This document shows, one piece after another, positions 5,429 to 13,118 of a DNA stretch of 33,164 bases (position 1 is its first letter; each line of letters opens with the position of its first letter). The notes under the pieces were generated by a model. The model saw only the letters and a program-made list of their open reading frames with translations. It was not told the origin of the DNA and made no database searches. Source of the stretch: Planctomycetota bacterium (lineage in GTDB: Bacteria; Planctomycetota; SZUA-567); NCBI GenBank assembly GCA_016936955.1, contig JAFGWW010000024.1, positions 1-33,164 of the forward strand, in the 5' to 3' direction. A program made the translations under genes and the position numbers.

Positions 5429-7921
<2,493 letters not shown>

Positions 7922-8024
7922 TTATTTCTCCTAACGGAATTCAAAACCACCGGAAATAATCAGAATCCCTCTGTGCCTGTGCCCGATTGTTTTTATAAGG
8001 CAGAACGATAAACGCGGATTGTGG

Positions 8025-8498
8025 TTATTCCCTTGTCCCCAGTTTAAATTTAATGTCTCTCAAAGGCGTCTTGCCAAGTTCCTTGTTCATGCTCTGTATA
8101 AGCTCGGCCTTGAAAAAATTCTCAAGCTCATGCTTGAGGGCGTTGCTGAAAACTTCTATGGTCAGAATCCCCTTGGCGAAGGATACCGGCATGGTGTTTT
8201 CCGATATTTCAGGACCTACGGTATTATACCAAATTTCCGAAAAATGTTGATGCTTTTTAACCCAATTCATCCCCGATTTTTTCAGGAATTTTTTGACTGA
8301 TTCGGCAAACTTTTCAGGGTCTGGAAGGACGTTTCTGGTGACCCTGCTGAAATTGCTGTCCTTGCCAACCAGGGAAGAGCGCACCCTGGCGGCTTCTTTC
8401 TCTTTTCTCTCGACTACGGTTCTTTTACGCCAGACTTCGAGAGCCTCGAATTCCTCGTCGCTCATCCCTTCCGGATTGTTGCGCGGGAGGCCGGTCAT
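8025..8498 (-). CDS. dciA: DciA/DUF721 family protein, replicative helicase loader
   Basis: 157 aa. DciA is the ancestral protein that helps load DnaB helicase in bacteria lacking DnaC/DnaI. The DUF721 domain occupies about residues 60-155, with the W..TVGPEISENTMPVSFAKGILTIEV..NALKHELENF block and the end MNKELGKTPLRDIKFKLG. The N-terminal 50 residues are charged and probably flexible. The ATG lies 2 nt after the dnaN stop (TAAtcATG), so translation is likely coupled. It sits where many bacteria have recF followed by DUF721; here recF is missing. Family assignment rests on the motif pattern. Confidence 0.85.
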   Translation of the reverse strand: MTGLPRNNPEGMSDEEFEALEVWRKRTVVERKEKEAARVRSSLVGKDSNFSRVTRNVLPDPEKFAESVKKFLKKSGMNWVKKHQHFSEIWYNTVGPEISENTMPVSFAKGILTIEVFSNALKHELENFFKAELIQSMNKELGKTPLRDIKFKLGTRE

Positions 8499-8500
8499 GA

Positions 8501-9595
8501 TTAACCGCGCGGCCTGATCGGCATTATTATATGGGTGAAATCCCCGATATCTAGCCGGGCCGGGCTCTCCGAATCGCGGAAACGAATGGTGATCTTTTCG
8601 TCAGAAACGGTCTTGAGTACATCGAGAAGGTATACAAAGTTGAAGCTTACGCTTATCCCCTCTCCGTCCACCTCGGCCGGGATCTCGGTGCGACCGTCGC
8701 CGCTCTCGCTTCCGGATGAATTGATAACAAGCTTGTCCGCCTCGGCGGAGATGCAGACAGAACGGGTCTCCTCGTTTGTGACCTGACCGCTCAGGCGCAG
8801 GGTCTTGATAAGAAGTTCGCGGTTTACGCTGACGCTCTTCTCAAGATCTTTCGGAATTACGTCTTTATATCTCGGGAATTGTCCATCAACCAGGCGCGCC
8901 ATCATTGTGGCCGAGCTGGTCTGGGCAATAAGTTCATGGGCGGTAAGGAATATTTTTACCGTCTCCTCATTGTCTGCAAGACGGGCAAGACTGTTCATAC
9001 CCTTGGTGATGACAATCGCTTCCACATTCTTTCCGCCGGTCCTGCTCTCTTTCTTCACCAAAGAGAGGCGGTGGGTGTCGGAAGAGACAAATTCCACGGC
9101 TTTCTTTTCAATATGAAGAAGAATACCGTTGAGGGCGTAGCGCGTGTCGCCTTTGGCGGTGGAGAACATGGTCTTGCTTACAGCGTCGACTATTGCCGCG
9201 CCTGACATCTCAATCACCCCTTCAGTCGGCATATCGCTGATCGCGGGGAAATCATCGCTGCTCTGGCCCACAAGATGGAACTTGCCGTTCTCGCTGGTTA
9301 TTTCCGCCTTATCGTTTTCAATATTGAAATTGATGGTATTAGCCCAGTCGTCACGGACAAGACCGTTGAGCCTTGAACCGGGCAGCAGAACCGTATCCGG
9401 ATCCTGCAGGCCGTCAACCTCCATCTCATAACGCATCCCGATCTCAAGGTCGGTAGCGGAAAGAGTAATGGTGCCGTTGTCGTTGCCCTTGATCTGGATA
9501 TTCTGCAGAACCGGCTTCGCACTTCTGCTTGGCACAACATCCATCAGCAAACCAAGAACTTCACACAATTTAGATCTTGAGCAGGAAAAACGCAT
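8501..9595 (-). CDS. dnaN: DNA polymerase III beta subunit (sliding clamp)
   Basis: 364 aa, the usual length. It forms the ring-shaped dimer that tethers polymerase III and clamp-binding factors to DNA. Three clamp domains can be traced: MRFSCSRSKLCEVLGLLMDV with the SAKPVLQNI block, the middle domain with DTRYALNGILLHIE and SSDTHRLSLVKKE, and the C-terminal domain ending FTHIIMPIRPRG, where most clamps have VIMPMRL. The SD GGGGAGA lies 9 nt before the ATG. An AT-rich 306-bp gap separates it from dnaA; dciA follows with a 2-nt gap. Confidence 0.97.
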   Translation of the reverse strand: MRFSCSRSKLCEVLGLLMDVVPSRSAKPVLQNIQIKGNDNGTITLSATDLEIGMRYEMEVDGLQDPDTVLLPGSRLNGLVRDDWANTINFNIENDKAEITSENGKFHLVGQSSDDFPAISDMPTEGVIEMSGAAIVDAVSKTMFSTAKGDTRYALNGILLHIEKKAVEFVSSDTHRLSLVKKESRTGGKNVEAIVITKGMNSLARLADNEETVKIFLTAHELIAQTSSATMMARLVDGQFPRYKDVIPKDLEKSVSVNRELLIKTLRLSGQVTNEETRSVCISAEADKLVINSSGSESGDGRTEIPAEVDGEGISVSFNFVYLLDVLKTVSDEKITIRFRDSESPARLDIGDFTHIIMPIRPRG

Positions 9596-9632
9596 CTGGT
9601 CAACTCTCCCCGTCTATTAGATAATTAATTAG

Positions 9633-9649
9633 GTAATAATACTACTAAT
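9633..9649 (-). promoter_or_regulatory. DnaA-trio-like triplet run
   Basis: On the minus strand the sequence is TTAGTAGTATTATTAC, i.e. TAG-TAG-TAT-TAT-TAC. DnaA-trios are tandem triplets (5'-TAG/TAA type) from which DnaA filaments grow on single-stranded DNA at bacterial origins. The position in an AT-rich gap beside dnaA fits, but no DnaA box flanks it directly, so this is a candidate only. Confidence 0.35.
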
Positions 9650-9814
9650 ATGATACCAACAATTGTTAATCTGACTGGTTATATTAATATAAATCATTTC
9701 ATAATAAAGATTTATATATTTATGGTGCTTGCTGTAAAGGTGCTTGTATATTATCGGAACCATGTTGATTAGGGGTTGATATGGTTCTTGCGCTTATCAT
9801 CTCCCTGATCAATT

Positions 9815-9898
9815 GTGTTGAAAACATACCCAATATTCAACACTATAATAACATCATAACTTCAGCTTACAGACATTGAATTCAACAGGAATTCAACA
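9815..9898. repeat. Clustered TTCAACA motifs: inverted pair plus 11-bp-spaced direct repeat
   Basis: GTGTTGAA (9815) faces TTCAACAC (9836) as a perfect 8-bp inverted repeat with a 13-bp centre, and AATTCAACA occurs at 9879 and 9890, one helical turn apart. All four copies share TTCAACA and sit just past the dnaA stop codon. Phasing and inversion suggest a protein-binding array. The binder is unknown. Confidence 0.5.
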
Positions 9899-9901
9899 AC
9901 C

Positions 9902-11188
9902 CTATTTATTTACCGTCTTTCTGAAATCAGCAACCAGCGCGCGCAGGGTTGAATCATTCTTCATCTGTTCGCGAACCTTCTCTGCTCCATGCTTTACCGT
10001 GCTGTGGTCCCTGCCGCCGAAATGCCTGCCGATTTCTTCGAGGCTGGCGGAGGTCATGGTCTGGGCAAGGAACATCGCAACCTGTCGAGGAAAGGCGATC
10101 GAGCGCATGCGGGTTTTGCTTACCATATCTTCATGGGAGATTGAAAAATGGGCGCAGATAAACTTCTCGACCTGTTCGAGGGTAATTGTGCTCGACGGCC
10201 TTCTCGAAGAGGTTTTGAGCAGTTTCTGAACCAGGCTTATATCAATATTTTCATTAAGAAGAACAGCCCTGCTCCGGAGTGAATTCAGAAGCCCTTCAAG
10301 TTCACGGACCGGGCCGAATGTATTATTGGCGATAAATTCAATCGCATTTTCCGGAACCTCAAAGCCTGCCTGCTCTGATTTCGATTTTATAATGCTTTTG
10401 CGCATATTGGCGCTCGGGTTATCCATCTCCACCACCAGACCCCACTGCAACCTGCTTGCAAGCTCATTTGAGAGGAAAGGAATGGACGAGGGTTCGAGCA
10501 GGGAGGAGAAGACAAGCTGGGCGTTTTTATTATGAAGCTGGTTGAATATATTGATAAATTCCATCTGGCAGCTTTTATGCTCGGCAAAATGATGGAAATC
10601 GTCAATTATAAGGATATCGCTGGAGAGGATGGTGTCTCTGAATTTTGCAAGGTTATTGCACTCTACCGCGCGCATGAAATTGTGGAGATAATACTTTGCT
10701 GAGAGGAAGAGGATATTTTTATCAGGCGAGGTTTCCTGAATTTTATTGGCAATAGCATTAAGAATGTGGGTTTTTCCTATCCCGATCCCCGCATGTATAA
10801 AGAGGGGGTTATAAGTGCCGGGATTGACCGAAACCTCTTTTGCTGCGGCGATTGCAAGCTTGTTTGACCCGCCCACATAAAGGTTATCAAAATGAAGGGC
10901 CGAGTTCGGCTCCTGGCTTTTGAGAGAATAAGTGGAAAAGAGATCTATTTTTACAAAAGGCTTTTTCTCGGAATTGTGGTGTACAGCTTCCTGGAGAAGA
11001 TTCTTGATATCTTCCGTAAAGAGGTCATTGAGGCTAGAATCGAGCAAAGAGAAGGTAATACTCTCGTCGTTGTGGCTGACTACTGAAAGACGGTTGAGCC
11101 AGGGGGAGAGGGGCTTGAATCTGGAAGATTCCGAGACCACAGATTTGAGTTTCAGAGAAACACCGGCATCGGGAAGATTTGATGACAA
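9902..11188 (-). CDS. dnaA: Chromosomal replication initiator protein DnaA (TTG start)
   Basis: 428 aa from the preferred TTG at 11188. DnaA is the AAA+ initiator that melts oriC. The track ORF starts at 11281, but AGGAGG lies 5 nt before an in-frame TTG at 11188 and the upstream extension (MFLLFFSGKRLG...) has no support, so the shorter start is chosen. Visible features are a divergent, shortened domain I (around SRFKPLSPWLNRL), Walker A GIGIGKTH (about residues 134-141), Walker B LIIDD (about 193-197), the sensor region with VRELEG, and the domain IV signature GRHFGGRDHSTVKHG (about 388-402), which contacts DnaA boxes. A consensus-like promoter and two DnaA-box-like sites lie upstream, consistent with autoregulation. 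Confidence 0.96.
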   Translation of the reverse strand: MSSNLPDAGVSLKLKSVVSESSRFKPLSPWLNRLSVVSHNDESITFSLLDSSLNDLFTEDIKNLLQEAVHHNSEKKPFVKIDLFSTYSLKSQEPNSALHFDNLYVGGSNKLAIAAAKEVSVNPGTYNPLFIHAGIGIGKTHILNAIANKIQETSPDKNILFLSAKYYLHNFMRAVECNNLAKFRDTILSSDILIIDDFHHFAEHKSCQMEFINIFNQLHNKNAQLVFSSLLEPSSIPFLSNELASRLQWGLVVEMDNPSANMRKSIIKSKSEQAGFEVPENAIEFIANNTFGPVRELEGLLNSLRSRAVLLNENIDISLVQKLLKTSSRRPSSTITLEQVEKFICAHFSISHEDMVSKTRMRSIAFPRQVAMFLAQTMTSASLEEIGRHFGGRDHSTVKHGAEKVREQMKNDSTLRALVADFRKTVNK

Positions 11189-11193
11189 ACCAA

Positions 11194-11199
11194 CCTCCT
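11194..11199 (-). promoter_or_regulatory. Strong ribosome binding site that fixes the dnaA TTG start
   Basis: AGGAGG on the minus strand, 5 nt upstream of TTG (11188-11186), following an AT-rich leader (AATATATATA). No comparable SD stands before the ATG at 11281. Confidence 0.75.
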
Positions 11200-11324
11200 T
11201 ATATATATTAACCGGCAATGTTAAAACCGGGAAATAATCTTCAATACCCAGCCGCTTCCCGCTGAAAAAAAGTAGGAACAAAAAACAGATTGATTATAAA
11301 TCGTTCCCGGGAAACAAAAGGGTG

Positions 11325-11344
11325 GTATCCACAGTTTATCCGCA
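11325..11344 (+). promoter_or_regulatory. Two DnaA-box-like sites one helical turn apart
   Basis: GTATCCACA (11325-11333) and TTATCCGCA (11336-11344) each differ by one base from TTATCCACA. Their starts are 11 bp apart on the same strand. They lie just downstream of the predicted dnaA promoter, where DnaA binding could repress its own gene. Confidence 0.6.
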
Positions 11345-11362
11345 ATCAACTATAATCGAAAA

Positions 11363-11390
11363 ATTCTATTAATATAGGCATATAAGTCAA
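11363..11390 (-). promoter_or_regulatory. Predicted dnaA promoter
   Basis: On the minus strand TTGACT (11390-11385) and TAGAAT (11368-11363) are separated by 16 bp; each differs by one base from the sigma70 consensus. The dnaA TTG start is about 175 nt downstream, giving a long leader that contains the two DnaA-box-like sites. Confidence 0.6.
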
Positions 11391-11417
11391 AAGAAAAAAG
11401 TTTTAATAAAAAATAAA

Positions 11418-11433
11418 TGTTTCACGTGAAACA
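11418..11433. promoter_or_regulatory. parS centromere site 1
   Basis: TGTTTCACGTGAAACA is an exact match to the 16-bp palindromic ParB-binding parS consensus; the flanking A/T extends the palindrome to 18 bp. parS sites nucleate ParB for chromosome segregation and usually cluster near oriC. parA and parB themselves are not in the window. Confidence 0.95.
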
Positions 11434-11566
11434 TATGCCTGCCCCGTAAATACCACCAATCCCATATGAGTATTGGTTCCTCTAGGAGATATATATTCCA
11501 TGGGGGCGGTATCCGGATAATGCCTGTTTCCCGCAAAGTATGCTTTCCCGGAAATAGCTACCTCAA

Positions 11567-11582
11567 TGTTTCACGTGAAACA
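11567..11582. promoter_or_regulatory. parS centromere site 2
   Basis: A second exact TGTTTCACGTGAAACA, 149 bp from the first, with the same outer A/T extension. Two perfect copies in one intergenic gap make chance occurrence very unlikely and support an origin-proximal partition locus. Confidence 0.95.
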
Positions 11583-11726
11583 TTAAATCAGAAAAAAATA
11601 TAAAAGTTGGTTATGTTCTGGTTTATGGTGGCGTAGAAAGAGGTAATAACCTGATCTTTTTTACCATTAAATCTTTTTATTATTGAAATAATGGATTTAT
11701 AAGTTAAATACTGTAATTTCCACAAG

Positions 11727-11735
11727 TTATACACA
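11727..11735 (+). promoter_or_regulatory. DnaA box TTATACACA beside the secretin start
   Basis: An exact match to TTATNCACA. A weaker neighbour, ATTTCCACA (11716, two mismatches), lies just upstream. The site ends about 10 nt before the secretin ORF start, so DnaA bound here could also affect that gene. Confidence 0.55.
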
Positions 11736-11744
11736 TGTTGATAG

Positions 11745-13118
11745 ATGGATAACTCAATGAAAATTAAACCACAATCCAAAGCCTCCTTAATCCTCTTCTT
11801 TGCCTTCATATCAATGGTTGTAAGTAACATGGCTGTTGGTGGTGAGGAAGGAAAGAAAAGGGAGAGGGGAAATAAACCCGCCAAAGCTTCCGGCATTAAA
11901 GACTCGGATCAGGTCAAGGCTCAGGATGTAGTTACCGAAGAAAACGGTAATATACCAACCGAAAGCCCTGAGCTTGGGGATACCACAGTATCGGATGACA
12001 ACTATACCAAGCTGATAGAATCCATCAGCATGGACAAGGAAGAGGAAAAGGAGATTGTCTTCCATAACTGCCGTAACGTAAGTTCGACCAATCTCAAAGA
12101 TATCCTTAATGACTTCATAACCGCCAAAGGCAGGGTGGCGGCGAGTGAAGAGTCTGACATAGTAATTATATCGGACGTCAAATCTAATATTGATAACCTT
12201 AAAAAGATCGCAGATACTGTAGATACCAGGGTTCCACAAATTCTTGTAAGCGCCCAGATTGTAGAGGTAACCCTCGATAACGATTTCGAGAAAGAGGTCA
12301 ACCTTTCCTTTGTCCACACCGGAAACCAGTCGTTTATCAAGGAAATAACCTCGGTTCTCACCACCCCCGGCGCCAGCCCAACCATCGGCGAGGGTAGTAA
12401 TATAAGCTTCCGCCCTTATGTCAAAAACTACGAGAACGGCAAGCGCAATGAGCTCTCCTCCTTCTTCCGCTACCTCGAAACCAAGGGCAAGGCCAAAATA
12501 TTATCGGCCCCCAACCTTATTCTGCGCCGCGGGACAGAAGGCAGCATTATTACGGGCGAAGAAGTGCCGATCCAGCAGCAGACAGTCGTCTCCGGCTCAC
12601 TCAGCACCTCCACCGTGTTCAAGGAAGTCGGCATCCGCATGAAGGTCACCCCCACCATGATCTCTCCCGACTCGGTAAGGATCAAGGTCAACCCGGAAGT
12701 ATCGACAGTAACCGGTTACTCCTCTTCCGGCGAAGGCGGGGTTGAAAACCCGATCATTGCCGTCCGCAAGGCGACGACCGAACTGGAAGTCAAGGACGGG
12801 CAGCTGATCTCGATCGGCGGGCTTTTGAGAAATGAAGAGCGTGAGGTCAAGAAGCGGGTTCCGGTGGCGAGCGATATTCCAATTGTTGGTGAACTCTTCA
12901 ACGCAAGGCGCACCGAGACGGTAAAAACCCAGCTTGTGATCTTCCTCCATATCAAGATTCTCAATGAAGGCGAGAAGGGGGGAGTAAACATTTTCCACCC
13001 CATGGACTTCCCTGATACCGTAAACCAGGAAGTTGAGAAAATACAGAAAGATATGCAGGAAAACAAGAAGCAGGTTCTCATGGATTTCGAGGAACCAAAG
13101 AAAGACGCTGATAAATAA
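11745..13118 (+). CDS. Stand-alone secretin (type II/III secretion secretin domain) protein
   Basis: 457 aa. Secretins form gated outer-membrane rings for type II/III secretion or type IV pili. An N-terminal signal sequence is visible (KASLILFFAFISMVVSNMAVGG); translation may start at 11745 or at Met5 (11757), and neither has a clear SD. A charged linker is followed by one short N-domain (about 105-165, EIVFHNCRNVSSTNLKDILN...). The secretin core then runs from VDTRVPQILVSAQIVEVT to VPVASDIPIVGELFNARR, with the family end signature, and finishes with TQLVIFLHIKIL. The C-terminus is a charged helix (VEKIQKDMQENKKQ), possibly a pilotin-binding segment. It has one N-domain instead of the several in full T2SS GspD, and no secretion genes are adjacent. 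It ends at a strong terminator. Confidence 0.85.
   Translation: MDNSMKIKPQSKASLILFFAFISMVVSNMAVGGEEGKKRERGNKPAKASGIKDSDQVKAQDVVTEENGNIPTESPELGDTTVSDDNYTKLIESISMDKEEEKEIVFHNCRNVSSTNLKDILNDFITAKGRVAASEESDIVIISDVKSNIDNLKKIADTVDTRVPQILVSAQIVEVTLDNDFEKEVNLSFVHTGNQSFIKEITSVLTTPGASPTIGEGSNISFRPYVKNYENGKRNELSSFFRYLETKGKAKILSAPNLILRRGTEGSIITGEEVPIQQQTVVSGSLSTSTVFKEVGIRMKVTPTMISPDSVRIKVNPEVSTVTGYSSSGEGGVENPIIAVRKATTELEVKDGQLISIGGLLRNEEREVKKRVPVASDIPIVGELFNARRTETVKTQLVIFLHIKILNEGEKGGVNIFHPMDFPDTVNQEVEKIQKDMQENKKQVLMDFEEPKKDADK

Follow-up and report, generated by a model that had tools for sequence, protein, structure and literature searches.

Two copies of a parS-like palindrome lie in the gap upstream of dnaA in a contig of an uncultured Planctomycetota bacterium, which raises the question of whether these sites belong to the replication origin, as a centromere, or to the dnaA promoter, as a control element. 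The window, that is the whole stretch analysed (33,164 nucleotides), is the entire contig C23 of the source genome (G000), a MAG of 3.66 Mb in 506 contigs with an estimated completeness of 61 %.

The parS pair and its origin neighbourhood

The first-pass annotation had described two exact parS sites 149 bp apart in the dnaA-upstream gap, sharing it with DnaA-box-like sites, and had added that parS often lies close to the origin. Both sites match the 16-bp palindrome TGTTNCACGTGNAACA of chromosomal parS exactly and their coordinates and start-to-start spacing of 149 bp are as described (Table 1). Perfect palindromy continues past the 16-mer, for 1 bp on either side of one site and 2 bp on either side of the other. 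No further parS-like site was found in the window at up to three mismatches, with 0.11 expected by chance. We scanned the whole assembly and found the pair to be its sole exact 16-mers, so that no exact copies are scattered away from the locus; two sites with 2 mismatches occur on other contigs, roughly as many as chance would yield (estimate about 0.9). The two 16-mers are very probably true parS.

Table 1. Features of the window that bear on the parS pair and the putative origin
Feature	Position	Strand	Basis
dciA and gyrB, conserved origin-region neighbours	5429..8498	-	
dnaN, DNA polymerase III beta clamp	8501..9595	-	Pfam
dnaA1-dnaN intergenic region, candidate origin core	9596..9901	-	inferred from conservation
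DnaA-trio-like tract TATTAGTAGTATTAT	9636..9650	-	
Third TGTTGAAT box	9835..9842	-	
TGTTGAAT box pair, 11 bp apart (TGTTGAATTCCTGTTGAAT)	9880..9898	-	sole such pair in the assembled genome
dnaA1, canonical dnaN-linked DnaA, 428 aa	9902..11188	-	Pfam Bac_DnaA and Bac_DnaA_C, TIGR00362, tree
DnaA-box-like GTATCCACA, 1 mismatch	11325..11333	+	
DnaA-box-like TTATCCGCA, 1 mismatch	11336..11344	+	
parS site 1, TGTTTCACGTGAAACA	11418..11433	.	exact match
parS site 2, TGTTTCACGTGAAACA	11567..11582	.	exact match
DnaA box TTATACACA, exact to TTATNCACA	11727..11735	+	
Secretin-family gene bordering the gap	11745..13118	+	Pfam Secretin

On the minus strand the genes run in the order gyrA, gyrB, dciA, dnaN and dnaA, followed by the gap (about 11189-11744) and the plus-strand secretin gene. 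The dnaA1 product scores 364 bits against TIGR00362 (cut-off 343.9). As read from the sequence, its likely start is a TTG at 11188 with AAGGAGG ahead, in an open frame that extends to 11281; parS sites 1 and 2 lie 230 and 379 bp upstream of this start. Scanning the window against Rfam and for tRNA genes gave no matches.

The cumulative GC skew of the window reaches its minimum at 10039, 1.4 kb from parS, and this minimum together with the dnaA-dnaN-gyrBA neighbourhood bears out the origin-proximal position typical of chromosomal parS. The gap holds three TTATNCACA-type boxes for 0.48 expected, as the first-pass annotation had sensed, and with the unique phased TGTTGAAT pair these provide the box cluster expected of a DnaA-dependent oriC. 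The trio-like tract follows the motif definition of PMC8287927; TAGTAGTA is found once in the window, where the 16 bp on either side of the tract hold no clear box.

Among the relatives, contig-wide skew minima lie about 0.25 kb from the sites in G004 (36238 versus 35954-35997), 0.25 kb in G009 (9674 versus 9310-9433) and 1.0 kb in G010 (29256 versus 30270), and in G007 the skew is strongly positive over 87 kb from the parS site onward. The minimum falls away from the sites in G002, G006, G008, G013 and G005, where the plot rests on a join of two contigs (C106 and C70). The skew is weak and the window contig short; taken by itself, GC skew was rejected as a test of the origin, being weak and noisy in several relatives.

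Conservation of the parS position and the adjoining box array

To compare the same gap, we used 15 further genomes of the family of the source organism (f1), with dnaN loci gathered by a DnaN profile; a DnaA-based contig scan gave no matches. Within the family the position is conserved: no fewer than eight genomes besides the source have parS, or sites resembling it, in the gap upstream of dnaA/dnaN. There are three sites in G007 (TGTTTCATATGAAACA twice, TGTTTCATGTGAAACA once), two each in G002, G006 and G013, one in G010, TGTTCCACGTGGAACA plus two one-sided variants in G008 and only degenerate copies in G015. In G004 and G009, variant sites of the TGTTTCATAAGAAACA type lie farther out, some 3.6-3.9 kb upstream of dnaN. 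No parS was found in G012 and G014, nor in G011, whose contig ends 435 bp upstream, and dnaN was not found in G001 and G003. Outside the family, about 75 dnaN loci, some of them incomplete, showed no parS within 2.2 kb of dnaN, and ParB-linked parS is present elsewhere in the phylum in G018, G019 and G029. The parS variants TGTTTCAYAAGAAACA of G004 (C79) and G009 (C17) sit at the GC-skew minimum and possibly reflect a shift in ParB specificity.

In G005, four parS lie at the end of contig C106 and dnaA1 at the end of contig C70. An exact 85-bp overlap between these contigs was rejected as proof of adjacency because this 85-mer is part of a dispersed repeat, matched 55 times in G005. In favour of adjacency, the G005 sequence retrieved contains the 16-bp flank TGAAACATTCCCCAGG just twice, with one copy on each side of the repeat. 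The repeat itself (C106:83480-83564 and about 55 other places) has inverted ends GGGCTATCGCATTAAAA; its insertion next to the fourth parS seems to have duplicated a 16-bp flank. The same genome carries nine more exact parS as single copies on nine other contigs, for a total of 13 versus two in the source assembly.

Both dnaA1 and the secretin gene are missing from the gap in six genomes (G002, G006, G008, G010, G013 and G015), and parS is still beside dnaN in all of them, in degenerate form in G015. Where it was read, the gene upstream of dnaN in these genomes is a different, divergently transcribed one. Because parS is kept beside dnaN after the loss of dnaA1, the sites belong to the origin and not to dnaA: the conserved association is that of parS, origin and dnaN rather than of parS with a dnaA promoter.

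Between dnaA1 and dnaN, the TGTTGAAT boxes of the window, placed at -303, -292 and -247 relative to dnaN, form an array that is common to the dnaN-upstream region of sister genera. In the six genomes without DnaA1, only 2-12 bp separate the end of the last parS-like site from the first TGTYGAAT-type box. Box spacing is 11 bp in four of the six and 10-20 bp in the other two, and TAGTAG or GTAGTA tracts follow the boxes in most of them. We searched 199 genomes for the exact 11-bp pair and found it at the dnaN-upstream locus once each in G000, G006, G008, G010 and G015; elsewhere there were nine scattered matches in eight genomes, versus five for a reversed control. TGTYGAAT arrays outside the family were discarded as isolated matches near the background rate. 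The array is likely to bind an initiator. In the simplest history, the window would keep an older order of parS, dnaA1, boxes and dnaN, and loss of dnaA1 would have joined parS to the boxes.

It is conceivable that parS and the initiator boxes make up a composite element in which ParB clamps slide through the boxes or compete there, tuning initiation. Such an element would be compatible with a centromere and finds support in the short parS-to-box spacing just described, in the presence of the same array in the window, and in V. cholerae chromosome II, where ParB2 spreads into an initiator site (PMC3688505). In the window, however, dnaA1 and a distance of about 1.5 kb separate the boxes from parS, and the adjacency elsewhere could be a mere by-product of dnaA1 deletion. 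We consider the composite element rather unlikely, and a direct influence of ParB on how the initiator binds possible by analogy with the published precedents (PMC3688505, PMC6399470).

The first-pass annotation had further suggested that ParB bound here may influence transcription of dnaA and the secretin gene. If ParB at the pair chiefly regulated transcription of dnaA1, and of the secretin gene, it would link segregation to initiator supply. Both parS do lie inside the divergent dnaA1/secretin promoter gap, and 28 bp from site 1 begins a sequence on the minus strand (11390 to 11363) that resembles a promoter of dnaA1. A P. aeruginosa study reports repression by excess ParB of the promoters adjoining parS3 and parS4 (PMC5521831). 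Promoter-like matches in the region are nevertheless not above chance (8 versus 5.6 +/- 2.1), and no fewer than six genomes without dnaA1, in which another gene flanks the gap, keep parS in the same position. Since parS outlasts both genes in those genomes, regulating their promoters is not the conserved purpose of the sites. The suggestion is left unsupported, and we find this reading improbable.

ParB, ParA and the two DnaA paralogues

The reading of the first-pass annotation was to be given up, on its own terms, if the genome had no parB. Profile searches with TIGR00180 and with a family-specific profile indeed found no ParB in the 61 % complete source MAG, and ParA/Soj gave only weak AAA_31 matches there. 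This absence is nonetheless a weak refutation, since the MAG is so incomplete and ParB is encoded by 27 of the 29 relatives searched; the searches found none in G003 (82 % complete) and G016 (64 % complete). The relatives' ParB has a chromosomal layout, the GERRLRA motif (GERRWRA in one member) and a conserved C-terminal segment, and 17 of 18 relatives have a strong Soj-like ParA match. As parA and parB occupy separate contigs in the relatives checked, their absence would amount to two independent gaps in the MAG, with a chance of roughly 0.15 (~15 %) at 61 % completeness, which calls for caution and is not a refutation.

The same searches bear on whether the palindromes, in an organism lacking ParB, have become inert relics or serve another regulator, as the missing ParB of the source genome, G003 and G016 could suggest. 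Perfect 16-mers are however unlikely to survive, if not selected, across lineages whose DnaN identity has dropped to 42-56 %, and with ParB in nearly all relatives and about 39 % of the expected genes missing from the MAG we judge such relics very improbable.

Two further observations concern the relatives' parB. The gene stands without an evident adjoining parA-sized ATPase gene (L081, L085, L092, L231-L243). In addition, ParB of G013, G002 and G001 carries small insertions in the helix-turn-helix (L238:362-1267, L237:1101-2108 and L232:8081-9079), and in G002 and G013 the core of parS varies as well (CATATG, CACATG). This is suggestive of a possible case of ParB-parS co-evolution.

A second DnaA (DnaA2), 28 % identical to DnaA1, is encoded in the source genome on another contig (C47; L077:8957-10390); it has all DnaA domains and scores above the TIGR00362 cut-off. 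Both paralogues also occur in G005, G007, G017 and G029. Within the family DnaA1 is the canonical, dnaN-linked protein and DnaA2 is unlinked. In a maximum-likelihood tree, DnaA1 of G000, G005, G007 and G017 clusters with dnaN-adjacent DnaA from other phyla, and DnaA2 and the sole DnaA of other class members form a separate group with modest support (83/62). The box-reading motif is RDHST in DnaA1 and R[SN]HAT or a near variant in the DnaA2 of the family. The idea that the contig is a plasmid, a chromid or a contaminant rather than part of the main chromosome of the MAG, prompted by the 506 contigs and by this second DnaA elsewhere, is scarcely credible against its gyrA, gyrB, dciA, dnaN and housekeeping genes, a DnaN closest to that of the family member G005 (56 %) and a DnaA1 that groups with those of G005, G007 and G017, each of which also has both DnaA types.

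Only DnaA2 was found in G002, G006, G008, G010, G013 and G015, and the dnaN-linked DnaA appears to have been lost in many family members. Canonical DnaA boxes number three in each gap of the DnaA1 genomes G000, G005 and G007, for about 0.5-0.65 expected, and are absent from the gaps of the genomes without DnaA1. We tentatively hypothesize that the divergent DnaA2, with RSHAT or RNHAT in domain IV, is replacing DnaA1 and reads the new TGTYGAAT box, with parS fused to the array as an element shared by ParB and the initiator; the window would then be transitional, with the two initiators and the two origin arms still in place. This scenario is possible, if on the doubtful side.

A proposed role and its relation to known systems

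We are confident that the pair is a genuine chromosomal parS, an origin-proximal centromere where ParB would load within a putative bipartite origin for segregation and, probably, for SMC loading. In established ParABS systems, parS nucleates ParB, which then spreads in clamp form and brings in ParA. By extension, we infer that ParB would bind here, load as a clamp at both parS and spread over the surrounding DNA, marking the newly replicated origin for ParA-driven segregation. SMC would probably be recruited or loaded through ParB at parS, and the duplicated origins would thereby be separated first. Should replication fire at this locus, as its architecture suggests, the outer arm of the origin would consist of the canonical DnaA boxes and parS upstream of dnaA1, and the second arm, between dnaA1 and dnaN, of the 11-bp-phased TGTTGAAT boxes and the trio-like tract as a putative unwinding site.

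Origin-proximal parS is in itself expected: parS at a replication origin is an ordinary kind of element, in a setting that is here unusual and informative. We found little on parS or oriC of Planctomycetota in the open literature. A parS that lies in the origin, is kept after loss of dnaA and then touches a box array offers a natural genome series for asking whether a mechanical coupling links segregation with initiation. With two DnaA paralogues, one of them lost in several genera, the family would also allow study of how initiator and box change without loss of the origin.

The bipartite origin of the B. subtilis type has dnaA between two box clusters and a trio just upstream of dnaN. The window likewise has dnaA1 between two box clusters and a trio-like tract just upstream of dnaN, but its inner cluster is made of TGTTGAAT boxes and the tract has no clear box at its side. 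The pair also resembles the chromosomal ParABS of that type (Spo0J/Soj-parS) in its 16-bp palindrome and origin-proximal position, with a chromosomal-type ParB and a Soj-like ParA in the relatives; unlike that system, parS is here inside the dnaA gap and not in or near parB, and parA and parB are apart.

A small parS cluster is also known from P. aeruginosa (parS1-4), whose ParB complex is reported to overlap oriC (PMC10419367), whereas here the sites are within the dnaA-upstream intergenic region itself. On V. cholerae chromosome II (parS2/rctA and oriII), centromere sites lie among initiator-binding sites, as they putatively do here, and spreading of ParB2 affects initiation (PMC3688505, PMC6399470). 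The initiator there is RctB and here DnaA. As in Caulobacter, finally, where parS is linked to Cori and has boxes nearby at which DnaA acts (PMC6399470), parS is here linked to the origin, but in this family it is accompanied by family-specific TGTYGAAT boxes beside standard DnaA boxes and by two DnaA paralogues.
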